Assembly: GCA_019744895.1 (NCBI GenBank)
Contig: JAIETV010000001.1
Span: 1 to 64,000, forward strand
DNA: 64,000 nt
Direction: 5' to 3'
From: Candidatus Babeliaceae bacterium
Lineage (GTDB): Bacteria; Babelota; Babeliae; Babelales; Babelaceae
A program made the translations under genes and the position numbers. Shown here in pieces: positions 44,398-49,864 of this stretch (the stretch's first letter is position 1; every line of letters starts with the position of its first letter). The notes beneath the pieces were generated by a model. That model was not told where the DNA came from and made no database searches. It saw only the letters and a program-made list of their open reading frames with translations.

Positions 44398-44802
44398 ATG
44401 AAACTACACTATCTTTCACTATTAATTGCAGCTTTTCCTTATTGTTATGCTATGCAACAGGAAGCTACTGATCCTGAAGTTCGGATAAAAATCGCTGCTG
44501 CAAAGAATGCCAGCGATAGAGTGCATGCAGAAATGATGCAAGCTAGAGCGATTTTAGCGGATCAAGAAGACCACAATCATGTGGCAGATGCTCGGTTACG
44601 GATGTATAATGAGGACCAGCGCAAACTTTATAAAAGAGTTGAAGAGGTCTGTCGCCATATTACTACAAATACCCATCCTGACAGCCGTAGGCGTTCTGAG
44701 TGCAATAGGCATATAAGAGAGTTTTATGAATGGTTAGATCGTAAGCAGGATGTCTTGGGTGCGTCTGGCTTTGATTATCCTTCGCTCAATTACAGAGGAT
44801 AA
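44398..44802 (+). CDS. secreted helical hypothetical protein
   Basis: The product is 134 aa with a signal peptide ending near Ala-18 (CYAMQQ). The mature part is strongly helical and charged (long Lys/Arg/Glu/Ala heptad-like stretch at 25-90) with two cysteines near 86 and 102. No family is recognised. It is first of a run of three small secreted protein genes; its stop lies 3 bases from the next start. Confidence 0.76.
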   Translation: MKLHYLSLLIAAFPYCYAMQQEATDPEVRIKIAAAKNASDRVHAEMMQARAILADQEDHNHVADARLRMYNEDQRKLYKRVEEVCRHITTNTHPDSRRRSECNRHIREFYEWLDRKQDVLGASGFDYPSLNYRG

Positions 44803-44805
44803 AAT

Positions 44806-45303
44806 ATGAAAATATATACGATGATCTCGTTTTTATTAATTGCATGCGGCCTCAACTTGGGGCAGATATCAGCTTCTGAGCAGCCAGAAAAAAGTTACAC
44901 CGATGCAGAATTCGCCTTGTTAGAAGAGATTCGATTCGAAAGTAAAAAGAAAGCTTCGCAACTCAAACACAATTTTACTGATGGTTGCCGTGCGCATGTG
45001 TCAGTCGCTAATCAGGATCAGTGGCTTTTAGATTTCAATGCTCCTTGTGCTCAAATGGTCGCTTTTTTAAAATTAATGAAAGAGCATCCATCGCTTCATA
45101 CTGGAAATGCACGGATTATACTTACCGTAGAAAGTGATACTTCAACGCAATTGTTAACACCTAGAGTCAATTCTTCGACAGGAACCTCCATAGGTAAATA
45201 TCGCTTTCATTCTATAGATGATGCAATACAAAGCATTGTTTATTTTGGCACATCGGGTGCTGAGGGACACAGAGACCATATGGACAAACAATCAAAGAAA
45301 TAA
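44806..45303 (+). CDS. secreted hypothetical protein
   Basis: The product is 165 aa with a signal peptide (about 1-23, ending ISAS). The mature part has an acidic helical start, two cysteines (near 64 and 84) and a beta-rich middle (ARIILTVESDTSTQLLTPRV). The ribosome site AGAGGA lies in the end of the previous gene. No family is recognised. Confidence 0.75.
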   Translation: MKIYTMISFLLIACGLNLGQISASEQPEKSYTDAEFALLEEIRFESKKKASQLKHNFTDGCRAHVSVANQDQWLLDFNAPCAQMVAFLKLMKEHPSLHTGNARIILTVESDTSTQLLTPRVNSSTGTSIGKYRFHSIDDAIQSIVYFGTSGAEGHRDHMDKQSKK

Positions 45304-45317
45304 GAAGCTAAAAGACC

Positions 45318-45683
45318 ATGAAAAAAAATATAATTTCTTTGCTGATTTTATGTTGTCCCATCTTTATATCCGCTATGGAACAAGATCTTATGGGGTTTTT
45401 ATTGCAACAAGATCAAGAATTGCGTAAGTGGCATACTCATGCTTCTTCAGAAGATATCAGAGCATTTGAAGCACTTTGTAGTGAGTATATAAAAAATATT
45501 AATACTATTTGTTGCGCAAGCGCTAGTGCACATAAATTATCCTCTTACATACTTCAAGATCCTGTCCGTGCTGAATGGTATAAAGATGCCTCTGATAAAG
45601 AAGCCAAAGCATTCTTAAAAGATTGTGATCTTCGTGCCCAATGTGCCCTTGAATTGCAAAAAAAGATGCGCGATCGAAAATAG
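45318..45683 (+). CDS. secreted hypothetical protein
   Basis: The product is 121 aa with a signal peptide (about 1-18). The body contains two similar segments: LLQQDQELRKWHTHASSEDIRAFEALCSEY near 26-55 and YILQDPVRAEWYKDASDKEAKAFLKDCDLR near 77-106, i.e. an internal duplication of about 30 residues with a conserved W-x2-A/D-S-D/E and Cys. Third gene of the cluster. No family is recognised. Confidence 0.75.
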   Translation: MKKNIISLLILCCPIFISAMEQDLMGFLLQQDQELRKWHTHASSEDIRAFEALCSEYIKNINTICCASASAHKLSSYILQDPVRAEWYKDASDKEAKAFLKDCDLRAQCALELQKKMRDRK

Positions 45684-45782: not shown

Positions 45783-46943
45783 ATGAAAAACCACTCTCAA
45801 ATCAAATTTTTGTTAAGCTTGTTGCTAGCCGCTACATGCGTGATCTATGCTGAGCAAATAGAAATACGTTCAATAAAGCCTCCTAAATTAGATGCTGCAC
45901 ATCTTGGTAAAGAAATTCGCTGTTACCGCCCGATGCGACGTGGTAGTCCCGATATGACCGTACGAAGAGTTGCGAATAGGGTTGTAGCGACAAATGCAGG
46001 TCATGGTGGAAGTGGATGGACACTGGGACCTGGCTGTGCTGCATATGTTAATTCTCTGTTGATCAATTCACCCTATGCGCAAGATTTAACCCTAGATACT
46101 CCCATAACTGTTATTGGCGCAGGCGCTTTGGGCCTGTTTAGTGCATATGATTTAGTTCAACGTGGTTATACGAATATCACTATTGTTGCAGAAAAAATGG
46201 ATGATCTTACATCTCATAATGCCGGTGGTTTATTGGCACCCGTATCTATGGATAATGATCCAGAAATGCAAAAAATTATCGATGAAATCGGTATTGAAGC
46301 ATATAACTTTTATGCTAAAATAGCCCACAATAGCATAGCATATTTTGATGGAGGTGCAGTTATTGTGCCAACTTATTTTCGTGATCGTAACGATTCTGGG
46401 CTTGAGCCATATGTTGGGGTTGTTATGGAACCAGCAAAGGATGTAATTCTCGATTTTGGTAATGGCACTACACAAAAAATGGTTGTATATGACGATGGTA
46501 TTTTTATCGATACAGCAAAAATGATGCGGGCGCTACATGCTTATTTATCATCAAAAGTAACTTTTATTAGTCAAAAAATAACTGATTTTGAACAAATTGC
46601 CGATACATACATTATTAACTGTACCGGCCTTGGCTCAAAAGAATTAAACAACGATTCCGAATTCATTTCGGTGCAAGGTCATTTGATTATGCTCAAAGAT
46701 CAAAATCCTTCCGATTTAAACTATATGATCCTTGTTTATTTTGGTGAAAGCATAAATCAAAATGGTCAACATATAAAACGATCTTTTTATATGTTCCCTA
46801 AACATCTACCCAACAGTGGTGTTACCGATGTTGGTGTTGTTGGCGGAACCTTTATTGAAGGCGCGACTGAAGACACTCCAAATAATGAAGAGTTTGGTAT
46901 TTTAATTAAAGGCGCTCAAGAATTTTATGGGATACAACTCTGA
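45783..46943 (+). CDS. secreted D-amino-acid oxidase-like flavoprotein, circularly permuted
   Basis: The product is 386 aa with a signal peptide (about 1-23). The Rossmann FAD motif VIGAGALGLFSAYDLVQRG lies at 110-128, then HNAGGLLAP, INCTGLGSKEL and the oxidase core YMFPK ... VVGGTFIEGATEDTPN, where the protein stops. The family's usual C-terminal part (substrate Arg in RPxR, and GHGGxGxT...GCA) is instead at the N-terminus: CYRPMRRG at 47-54 and GHGGSGWTLGPGCA at 73-86. All family parts are present, in permuted order. Expected reaction: oxidative deamination of D-amino acids with H2O2 release, outside the cytoplasm. It follows three small secreted protein genes. Confidence 0.87.
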   Translation: MKNHSQIKFLLSLLLAATCVIYAEQIEIRSIKPPKLDAAHLGKEIRCYRPMRRGSPDMTVRRVANRVVATNAGHGGSGWTLGPGCAAYVNSLLINSPYAQDLTLDTPITVIGAGALGLFSAYDLVQRGYTNITIVAEKMDDLTSHNAGGLLAPVSMDNDPEMQKIIDEIGIEAYNFYAKIAHNSIAYFDGGAVIVPTYFRDRNDSGLEPYVGVVMEPAKDVILDFGNGTTQKMVVYDDGIFIDTAKMMRALHAYLSSKVTFISQKITDFEQIADTYIINCTGLGSKELNNDSEFISVQGHLIMLKDQNPSDLNYMILVYFGESINQNGQHIKRSFYMFPKHLPNSGVTDVGVVGGTFIEGATEDTPNNEEFGILIKGAQEFYGIQL

Positions 46944-48870: not shown

Positions 48871-49257
48871 TTAATCTTCTTCTGCAAATGTCTCTTTTGC
48901 CGCCCTTTCAATATTTTTATTAAAGAATTGAGTTGTCATAGAGGGAGCTGCATCTGATTTTGTTATAAAAAAAGACTCTATACCTTCCTCTGATCCCAGA
49001 TTATAATGCGCCATGGGAAAAGTTGTTGCGTAGTAACCGCCCTTCATCATCTGATTTTTTTGAATAAAGAAATTGAGAAGCGCGCCTTTAAAATAAGGGT
49101 CACACACATCTCCGTAGGGCAAGAGGCGGCACCATCTTACTTGTGTATTATTTTCAAGCGTGGTGAAAATAAATGCAGTAATAGGTGCTTTTTGAGGTGC
49201 ATCGTGAGAGGATAGCGATATGGTGGCCAAAATTGCTAAAAAGATTGATTTTTTCAT
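48871..49257 (-). CDS. secreted hypothetical protein, tandem paralogue A
   Basis: The product is 128 aa from ATG 49257, set by GAGGAAG; longer in-frame extension overlaps the upstream gene and is not credible. The signal peptide MKKSIFLAILATISLSSHD and the following APQKAPITAFIFTTLENNTQVRWCRLLP match paralogue B (49268-49864: MKKTLFLSILATASL, APKKTPVTDFIFQRLENNEKTQWCRSFP). DPYFKGALL also aligns with HPYFKRAIL. Its C-terminus is shorter. Unknown family; likely recent duplication then divergence. Confidence 0.78.
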   Translation of the reverse strand: MKKSIFLAILATISLSSHDAPQKAPITAFIFTTLENNTQVRWCRLLPYGDVCDPYFKGALLNFFIQKNQMMKGGYYATTFPMAHYNLGSEEGIESFFITKSDAAPSMTTQFFNKNIERAAKETFAEED

Positions 49258-49267
49258 GCTCGCTTCC

Positions 49268-49864
49268 TCATTTGGTATAATCTTCCAATGCATAAGTTGA
49301 ACCAGTTGCTTTTTTGTAAGCCTGAATGAATTCGTTATGGTTCTCGAAAGTGCTTTTACACGTATACATTTTTGTGGGCACCACAGCATTAGAATGAAAA
49401 AAATAACTTCTGCACTCACTATATTTATCTTCTAAATTAACTTTTGCTTCAAAGTCTTGAATAGCCTTCTCCCCATCTACCCAAATATCAGTTTTAACAT
49501 GAGGGGATGAATCTTTCGATTCAGTTGAAAAGTAAAGCCGCAATCCCGACAAAGGATAAACATTATCCGATTCATCCATAATTTCTGCATGATATGTCCC
49601 TTCCATCCCTAATTCACGCTGAATATCGGCTTGAAGAATAGCTCTTTTAAAATAGGGGTGAGTGAAAGTTGCAGCAAAGAATAAAAGGGTAAAAAGCGGG
49701 GAGAAGATATCTTTTCCAAAGCCAGGAAAACTGCGACACCATTGAGTTTTTTCATTATTTTCAAGTCTTTGAAAGATGAAATCTGTGACGGGTGTTTTTT
49801 TAGGCGCTTCCTGCGCGCATAGCGATGCAGTAGCCAAAATTGATAAAAATAATGTTTTTTTCAT
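49268..49864 (-). CDS. secreted hypothetical protein, tandem paralogue B
   Basis: The product is 198 aa with a signal peptide ending near Ala-17 (SLCAQE). It has five cysteines, a short hydrophobic insert (LFTLLFFAATF, about 57-67) absent from paralogue A, and a beta-rich C-terminal half. The gene starts behind GAGGATCC and its stop is 10 bases from paralogue A. No family is recognised. Confidence 0.8.
   Translation of the reverse strand: MKKTLFLSILATASLCAQEAPKKTPVTDFIFQRLENNEKTQWCRSFPGFGKDIFSPLFTLLFFAATFTHPYFKRAILQADIQRELGMEGTYHAEIMDESDNVYPLSGLRLYFSTESKDSSPHVKTDIWVDGEKAIQDFEAKVNLEDKYSECRSYFFHSNAVVPTKMYTCKSTFENHNEFIQAYKKATGSTYALEDYTK

Follow-up and report, generated by a model that had tools for sequence, protein, structure and literature searches.

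D-amino-acid oxidase (DAAO) is among the most studied flavoenzymes, with a place in biosensors, antibiotic synthesis and neurobiology. DAAO and D-aspartate oxidase (DASPO), classified as EC 1.4.3.3 and 1.4.3.1, belong to the Pfam family DAO (PF01266) and are represented in the PDB by entries 1kif, 2du8, 6rkf and 7ct4. The canonical order of their chains, with the FAD strand first and the RPxR...GHGG segment last, is shared by the superfamily at large, glycine oxidase and sarcosine oxidase included. Monomeric sarcosine oxidase (MSOX), the N-methyltryptophan oxidase SolA and FsqB are cytoplasmic proteins of canonical order that carry 8-alpha-S-cysteinyl FAD, and in E. coli SolA it is Cys308 that holds the cofactor covalently. 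In human DAAO the substrate carboxylate is held by R283 and Y228 (PMC8260693). Covalent FAD in MTOX and MSOX is cited in PMC6222107, according to which a lysine (K348 in MSOX, K448 in FsqB) is required for flavinylation.

The gene described here lies in a window of 64,000 nucleotides, the whole stretch of DNA that was analysed, from a Candidatus Babeliaceae bacterium, and is a real member of an undescribed, permuted branch of this known enzyme family. Like DAAO and DASPO, its product has the fold of the family, the FAD motif, the counterparts of R283 and Tyr228, GHGGxG and the full set of segments; unlike them, it belongs to a group with permuted order, in which most members are exported and most have Cys where DAAO has Gly281, and Tyr224 and Gln53 are not retained. 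The match to ThiO (TIGR02352) and to the D-amino-acid dehydrogenases (PRK00711, PRK12409), which unlike the window protein have the canonical order, is weak and confined to the region of the FAD motif, and for ThiO glycine oxidase it amounts to 38.4 bits against an NCBIfam cut-off of 250.8. The fold and the chemistry are thus known, and the order of the chain and, for most members, the cellular location are new. Searches of the open-access full-text literature for a permuted DAO, DAAO or FAD-dependent oxidoreductase, and for twin-arginine or Dependentiae in combination with amino acid oxidase, returned nothing relevant, in agreement with the preliminary description of this DNA, whose author knew of no permuted member. 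Current annotation labels such proteins merely 'FAD-dependent oxidoreductase'.

Segment order of the window protein

The full-length protein matches PF01266 with an E value of 3e-22 and 80.1 bits (gathering cut-off 27.9), which places it in the DAO family at the level of the fold, and does so in two stretches whose order is swapped relative to DAAO and DASPO: residues 108-382 correspond to profile positions 2-297 and residues 41-89 to positions 303-350. When the two parts were searched separately, as the preliminary description had proposed, residues 1-105 again found positions 303-350 (E 3.5e-4) and residues 91-386 found positions 2-297 (E 5e-17). The halves cover the profile once, no part being missing or doubled, and the cut falls between 297 and 303; this bears out the original claim that all parts of the family are present in changed order. 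The claim that the moved segment stands in front was also correct, but the bounds given for it, residues 47-86, were not; alignment to human DAAO places its start, PPKLDAAHLG, at about residue 33 and its end at about residue 100-103. Within the window protein, PPKLDAAHLGKEIRCYRPMR aligns to the counterpart segment of human DAAO. The features are collected in Table 1.

Table 1. Features of the permuted gene and its product, in window coordinates
Feature	Position	Strand	Basis or remark
Gene for permuted DAO-family flavoprotein	45783..46943 (stop included)	+	386 aa from ATG, free of internal stops
Sec-type signal peptide, residues 1-24	45783..45854	+	Positively charged start, core FLLSLLLAATCVI, cleavage-like site between IYA and EQ, by eye
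Moved segment, C-terminal in canonical DAAO (human 267-339), residues 33 to ~103	45879..46091	+	Profile matches, alignment to human DAAO
Cys47, two residues before substrate arginine	45921..45923	+	Alignment, motif scan
RPMR, residues 49-52	45927..45938	+	R49 = human R283, R52 = human R286
GHGGSGWT, residues 73-80	45999..46022	+	DAAO GHGGxGxT, human 310-317
Rejoined point: linker from former C-terminal helix to former N-terminal strand, residues ~97-106	46071..46100	+	Model and alignment
N-terminal four fifths of canonical DAAO (human 2 to ~263), residues 107-386	46101..46940	+	Pfam and alignment
GAGALG, residues 112-117	46116..46133	+	Dinucleotide-binding motif, FAD Rossmann fold
Tyr336, equivalent of human DAAO Tyr228	46788..46790	+	Alignment; putative carboxylate binding

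A profile of canonical DAAO tails scored 32.5 bits against residues 25-105, where the best of 2000 shuffles reached 8.9 bits; together with the Pfam and PDB searches this identifies the N-terminal segment as a DAO tail only and disposes of the earlier concern that it might come from another family. In a PDB search with a profile of the permuted family, every DAAO or DASPO chain shown matched as two swapped stretches, and therefore only the canonical order is seen among these solved chains. A second concern had been a canonical copy of the C-terminal segment downstream. A six-frame scan of the window for RPxR...GHG returned one instance, which is the gene itself, and the source genome contains a single copy of the permuted gene; a downstream canonical tail is therefore absent.

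AlphaFold2 models built from shallow alignments reached at best pLDDT 76 and pTM 0.80 for the precursor and pLDDT 75 and pTM 0.81 for the mature form, with one of five models confident in each case. In both, a long RPxR strand is predicted to lead into the helix after GHGG, which is the former C-terminal helix, and from there into the Rossmann strand, so that the modelled elements follow one another as in DAAO with the RPxR strand as the starting point. The 33 best Foldseek matches in the PDB are all DAAO or DASPO; since this aligner depends on sequence order, the search reads mainly residues 105-386.

Distribution of the permuted family

Nine contigs from MAGs named as Rickettsiaceae, Holosporales, Finniella and others share this order, with 57-65% identity. 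Of 101 genomes from the phylum to which the window belongs, 27 gave at least one match, and in each of them the best one spans the junction; its two congeners, G001 and G002, are without the permuted gene. Actinobacterial and rhizobial records also carry the permuted order, and plasmid records with the gene come from Bradyrhizobium, Rhizobium, Mesorhizobium (frameshifted), Nonomuraea, Kozakia and Niveispirillum. The preliminary description had advised a search for orthologues of the same order in related genomes; they exist there and in other phyla, and beyond what it foresaw, the window protein proves to be one member of a large permuted family of single origin. A chimeric assembly, or tandem genes fused by error, might be suspected in a draft genome of 23 contigs; the identical order in dozens of independent genomes from several phyla, complete plasmids included, excludes a join of this kind and leaves such an artefact a negligible chance.

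A profile search of Alphaproteobacteria gave full-length permuted matches in 16 of 385 genomes, with E values below 1e-50. The corresponding counts were 3 of 327 genomes in a Bacteroidota-like phylum, where about 19 canonical matches were found, and 5 of 324 in a Planctomycetota-like phylum, with four canonical. Automatic classification of 84 loci assigned 59 to the permuted order, 25 to the canonical order and none to both. Scans of viral contigs with the window protein found no relative, phage records yielded a single 49-residue match to the tail segment, and a PHROGs search returned nothing.

Several observations concern individual genomes. In Alphaproteobacteria, the 16 genomes with a permuted DAO compare with a single genome in which a canonical DAAO was recognisable at the sensitivity of the profile. 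In G007, a second permuted copy (L016/L017, G007:C114:23304-24361) is broken by a stop or frameshift at the junction of the former ends, and an intact permuted copy (L014) is present elsewhere in the genome. The Finniella MAG G105 (L006) has four matches, of which at least two are full-length and permuted (61% and 59% identity), a local expansion. The split permuted gene of Mesorhizobium was considered as a natural split and rejected, as it is a simple frameshift inside GAGVMG/LTAAT.

A single origin of the permutation

For phylogenetic analysis, permuted sequences were restored to the canonical order, and 57 of them were combined with 26 canonical DAAO/DASPO-type sequences. In a quick tree one branch with 98% SH-aLRT support split the permuted from the canonical sequences. 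In a careful tree, restricted to columns with at least 75% occupancy, the same branch received 100/100, and one change of order was counted in 200 of 200 bootstrap trees. Since permuted and canonical sequences fall on either side of one branch, a single permutation event suffices, and since the rest of the superfamily has the canonical order, it is the permuted order that is derived. All 57 permuted sequences lie outside the canonical clade, and the group is therefore placed as a sister branch and not as canonical DAAO. The window protein groups with Rickettsiales- and Holosporales-type MAG sequences in an eight-member clade (99/91); this grouping and the scattered occurrence of the gene within the window's phylum suggest horizontal transfer.

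The event itself would have cut the canonical chain at about human residue 264, past the helix that follows the GGTF strand and ahead of the strand with the substrate arginine, and a short linker would have connected the former C-terminal helix to the FAD strand that was once N-terminal. It probably proceeded by tandem duplication of a canonical gene, after which new start and stop points arose. A natural branch of this kind indicates that the DAAO fold can accommodate termini in the substrate domain in place of the FAD strand, and it offers engineers alternative fusion points ready-made. As a natural permutation that is clean and arose once, it can also be compared with its canonical sisters.

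Export signals

Export signals of the Sec, lipoprotein or twin-arginine (TAT) type, as judged by eye and by hydropathy, are present in about 36 of the 57 permuted sequences and in none of 25 canonical ones, a difference for which Fisher's test gives p 1e-8 if rows are independent, which they are not. Sec signals are found in the window protein, L003 and L004, lipoprotein signals in L002, L005 and L007, and twin-arginine signals in L008, L051, L062-L066 and others. The signal peptide that the preliminary description saw added to the chain is present and is typical of the permuted branch, although part of the permuted members, which that description had not anticipated, are not exported. Canonical chains begin at the FAD strand. 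The N-terminus of permuted chains lies in the substrate domain, off the buried FAD strand, and this is a possible reason for the association with export.

The window protein is probably exported by the Sec route, as its signal peptide indicates. No TatC was found in the source genome by a search that was positive in 11 of 14 control genomes, and because of this a Sec route and uptake of FAD outside the cytoplasm would be expected.

Conserved residues and Cys47

Residues were mapped by alignment of the window protein to human DAAO, and conservation was counted over the 57 permuted sequences. The substrate arginine R49 is present in 56 of 57 and R52 in all, as are G73, G76 and G78 of the GHGG segment; the GxGxxG glycines, G112, G114 and G117 in the window protein, are found in 57, 57 and 56. 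The window protein has the R283 and Y228 equivalents as well as GHGGxGxT and GxGxxG. The Tyr228 equivalent is present in the window's group and missing in the alphaproteobacterial TAT group, which makes one substrate common to the whole branch unlikely. Tyr224 and Gln53 of human DAAO are absent from the window protein and likewise from bacterial canonical enzymes. A non-catalytic protein of permuted DAO fold, with a binding or structural role at the surface of endosymbionts, would be compatible with export, a diverged substrate loop, the lack of partner genes and a reduced genome of 0.88 Mb, and one relative (L002) has R49 replaced by His; it is nonetheless improbable, as the arginines and the glycines of both motifs have been kept almost without exception despite deep divergence.

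At the position of canonical Gly281, Gly is found in all 26 canonical sequences, and the permuted sequences have Cys (46/57) or Gly (11/57). In each of 48 Cys-bearing loci scanned, the distance from this Cys to the first Gly of GxxGxG is 26 residues, identical to that of Cys308 in SolA. The equal spacing is what suggests covalent FAD, and attachment of the cofactor through Cys47 is put forward as a tentative possibility. The comparison with SolA is one of motif spacing alone, since MAFFT misplaced SolA and pairwise and profile alignments of permuted proteins to SolA stopped short of Cys308; in a gapless alignment the two segments share 4 of 57 residues. Where MSOX and FsqB have the flavinylation lysine, the corresponding position is Thr80 in the window protein and Thr, Ser or Ile in all permuted rows; this, like the low identity and the profile alignment that stopped short of Cys308, counts against covalent attachment. 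That Cys47 tracks export was considered and rejected, since Cys also occurs in unsignalled members from the window's phylum, and Gly in several TAT members.

Proposed function and gene neighbourhoods

The window protein is best read, with a probability of roughly 0.6, as an exported flavoenzyme of a permuted DAAO/DASPO branch, with a D-amino acid or a close analogue as the substrate of oxidation. It would fold as the usual two-domain flavoprotein and bind FAD at GAGALG, with R49 and Y336 holding the alpha-carboxylate of the substrate. The D-amino acid or analogue would be converted to the imino acid, and the electrons would pass to O2, yielding H2O2, or to a respiratory carrier. Counted against such a reading are the need of a Sec-exported flavoprotein to take up FAD outside the cytoplasm, the absence of Tyr224 and Gln53, the lack of a conserved partner gene and the single confident AlphaFold model out of five. 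If it is correct, exported D-amino-acid oxidation is predicted in endosymbionts and free-living bacteria.

The window copy has no conserved partner gene, and no cytochrome or dehydrogenase partner was found nearby; around it lie exported proteins specific to its lineage and a CAAX-protease-like protein. Directly upstream on the same strand (44398-45683) are three short consecutive exported proteins with no Pfam match. Two exported ORFs at 48871-49419 and 49268-49864 (minus strand), also with no Pfam match, have alike starts (KKSIFLAILATISLSSHDAPQKAPITAFIFTTLENN and KKTLFLSILATASLCAQEAPKKTPVTDFIFQRLENN) and are tandem paralogues.

Elsewhere, the neighbours of exported members hint at peptide and amino-acid breakdown. 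Serine hydrolases of PF00144, a common family, adjoin L136 and L140, occur in a Kozakia operon, and lie within 5 kb in L003 and L008; an S9 peptidase adjoins the permuted gene in L124, L126 and Kozakia, and an exported RidA protein (imine deaminase family) adjoins L135. The apparent operon on plasmid pKB14400_3 of Kozakia baliensis (L120:5760-13661) surrounds a TAT-exported permuted DAO in the order PF00144, DAO oxidoreductase, PF00144, S9 peptidase, permuted DAO and cytochrome c, and looks like a periplasmic unit for the breakdown of peptides or D-amino acids.

The position of the cytochrome c gene directly after the permuted gene in Kozakia also bears on a different reaction, in which the permuted fold would serve a dehydrogenase of amines, N-methyl amino acids or imino acids with a c-type cytochrome or quinone, in place of O2, as electron acceptor. 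The diverged substrate loop, the loss of the Tyr228 equivalent in the alphaproteobacterial TAT group, and a rhizobial and actinobacterial setting with a thiamine diphosphate (TPP) enzyme (and, in rhizobia, a flavin oxidoreductase) that is unlike amino-acid breakdown all lean the same way. For the window copy, which retains both carboxylate-binding equivalents and has neither a cytochrome nor a dehydrogenase as neighbour, such a reaction is not very likely. An exported oxidase of D-amino acids or close analogues remains the preferred reading. A more far-reaching scenario would have one ancient permutation shift the N-terminus from the buried FAD strand to a surface loop, free it for signal peptides and so take the enzyme to the periplasm and cell surface, where part of the branch, with FAD held covalently by Cys47, would act in cell-wall or peptide salvage as a D-amino-acid dehydrogenase linked to the respiratory chain and spread horizontally between intracellular bacteria of different phyla; taken as a whole it is speculative and unlikely.

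Functions inside the branch probably differ, since the members from rhizobia and actinobacteria lack a signal and accompany a TPP enzyme, joined in rhizobia by a flavin oxidoreductase. Unsignalled permuted genes stand beside a TPP-dependent enzyme at L041:2920-3972, L050:5998-7059 and L040:2956-4050. The arrangement possibly reflects an uncharacterised pathway common to rhizobia and Nonomuraea, and on two rhizobial plasmids a second FAD oxidoreductase also lies beside the permuted gene.
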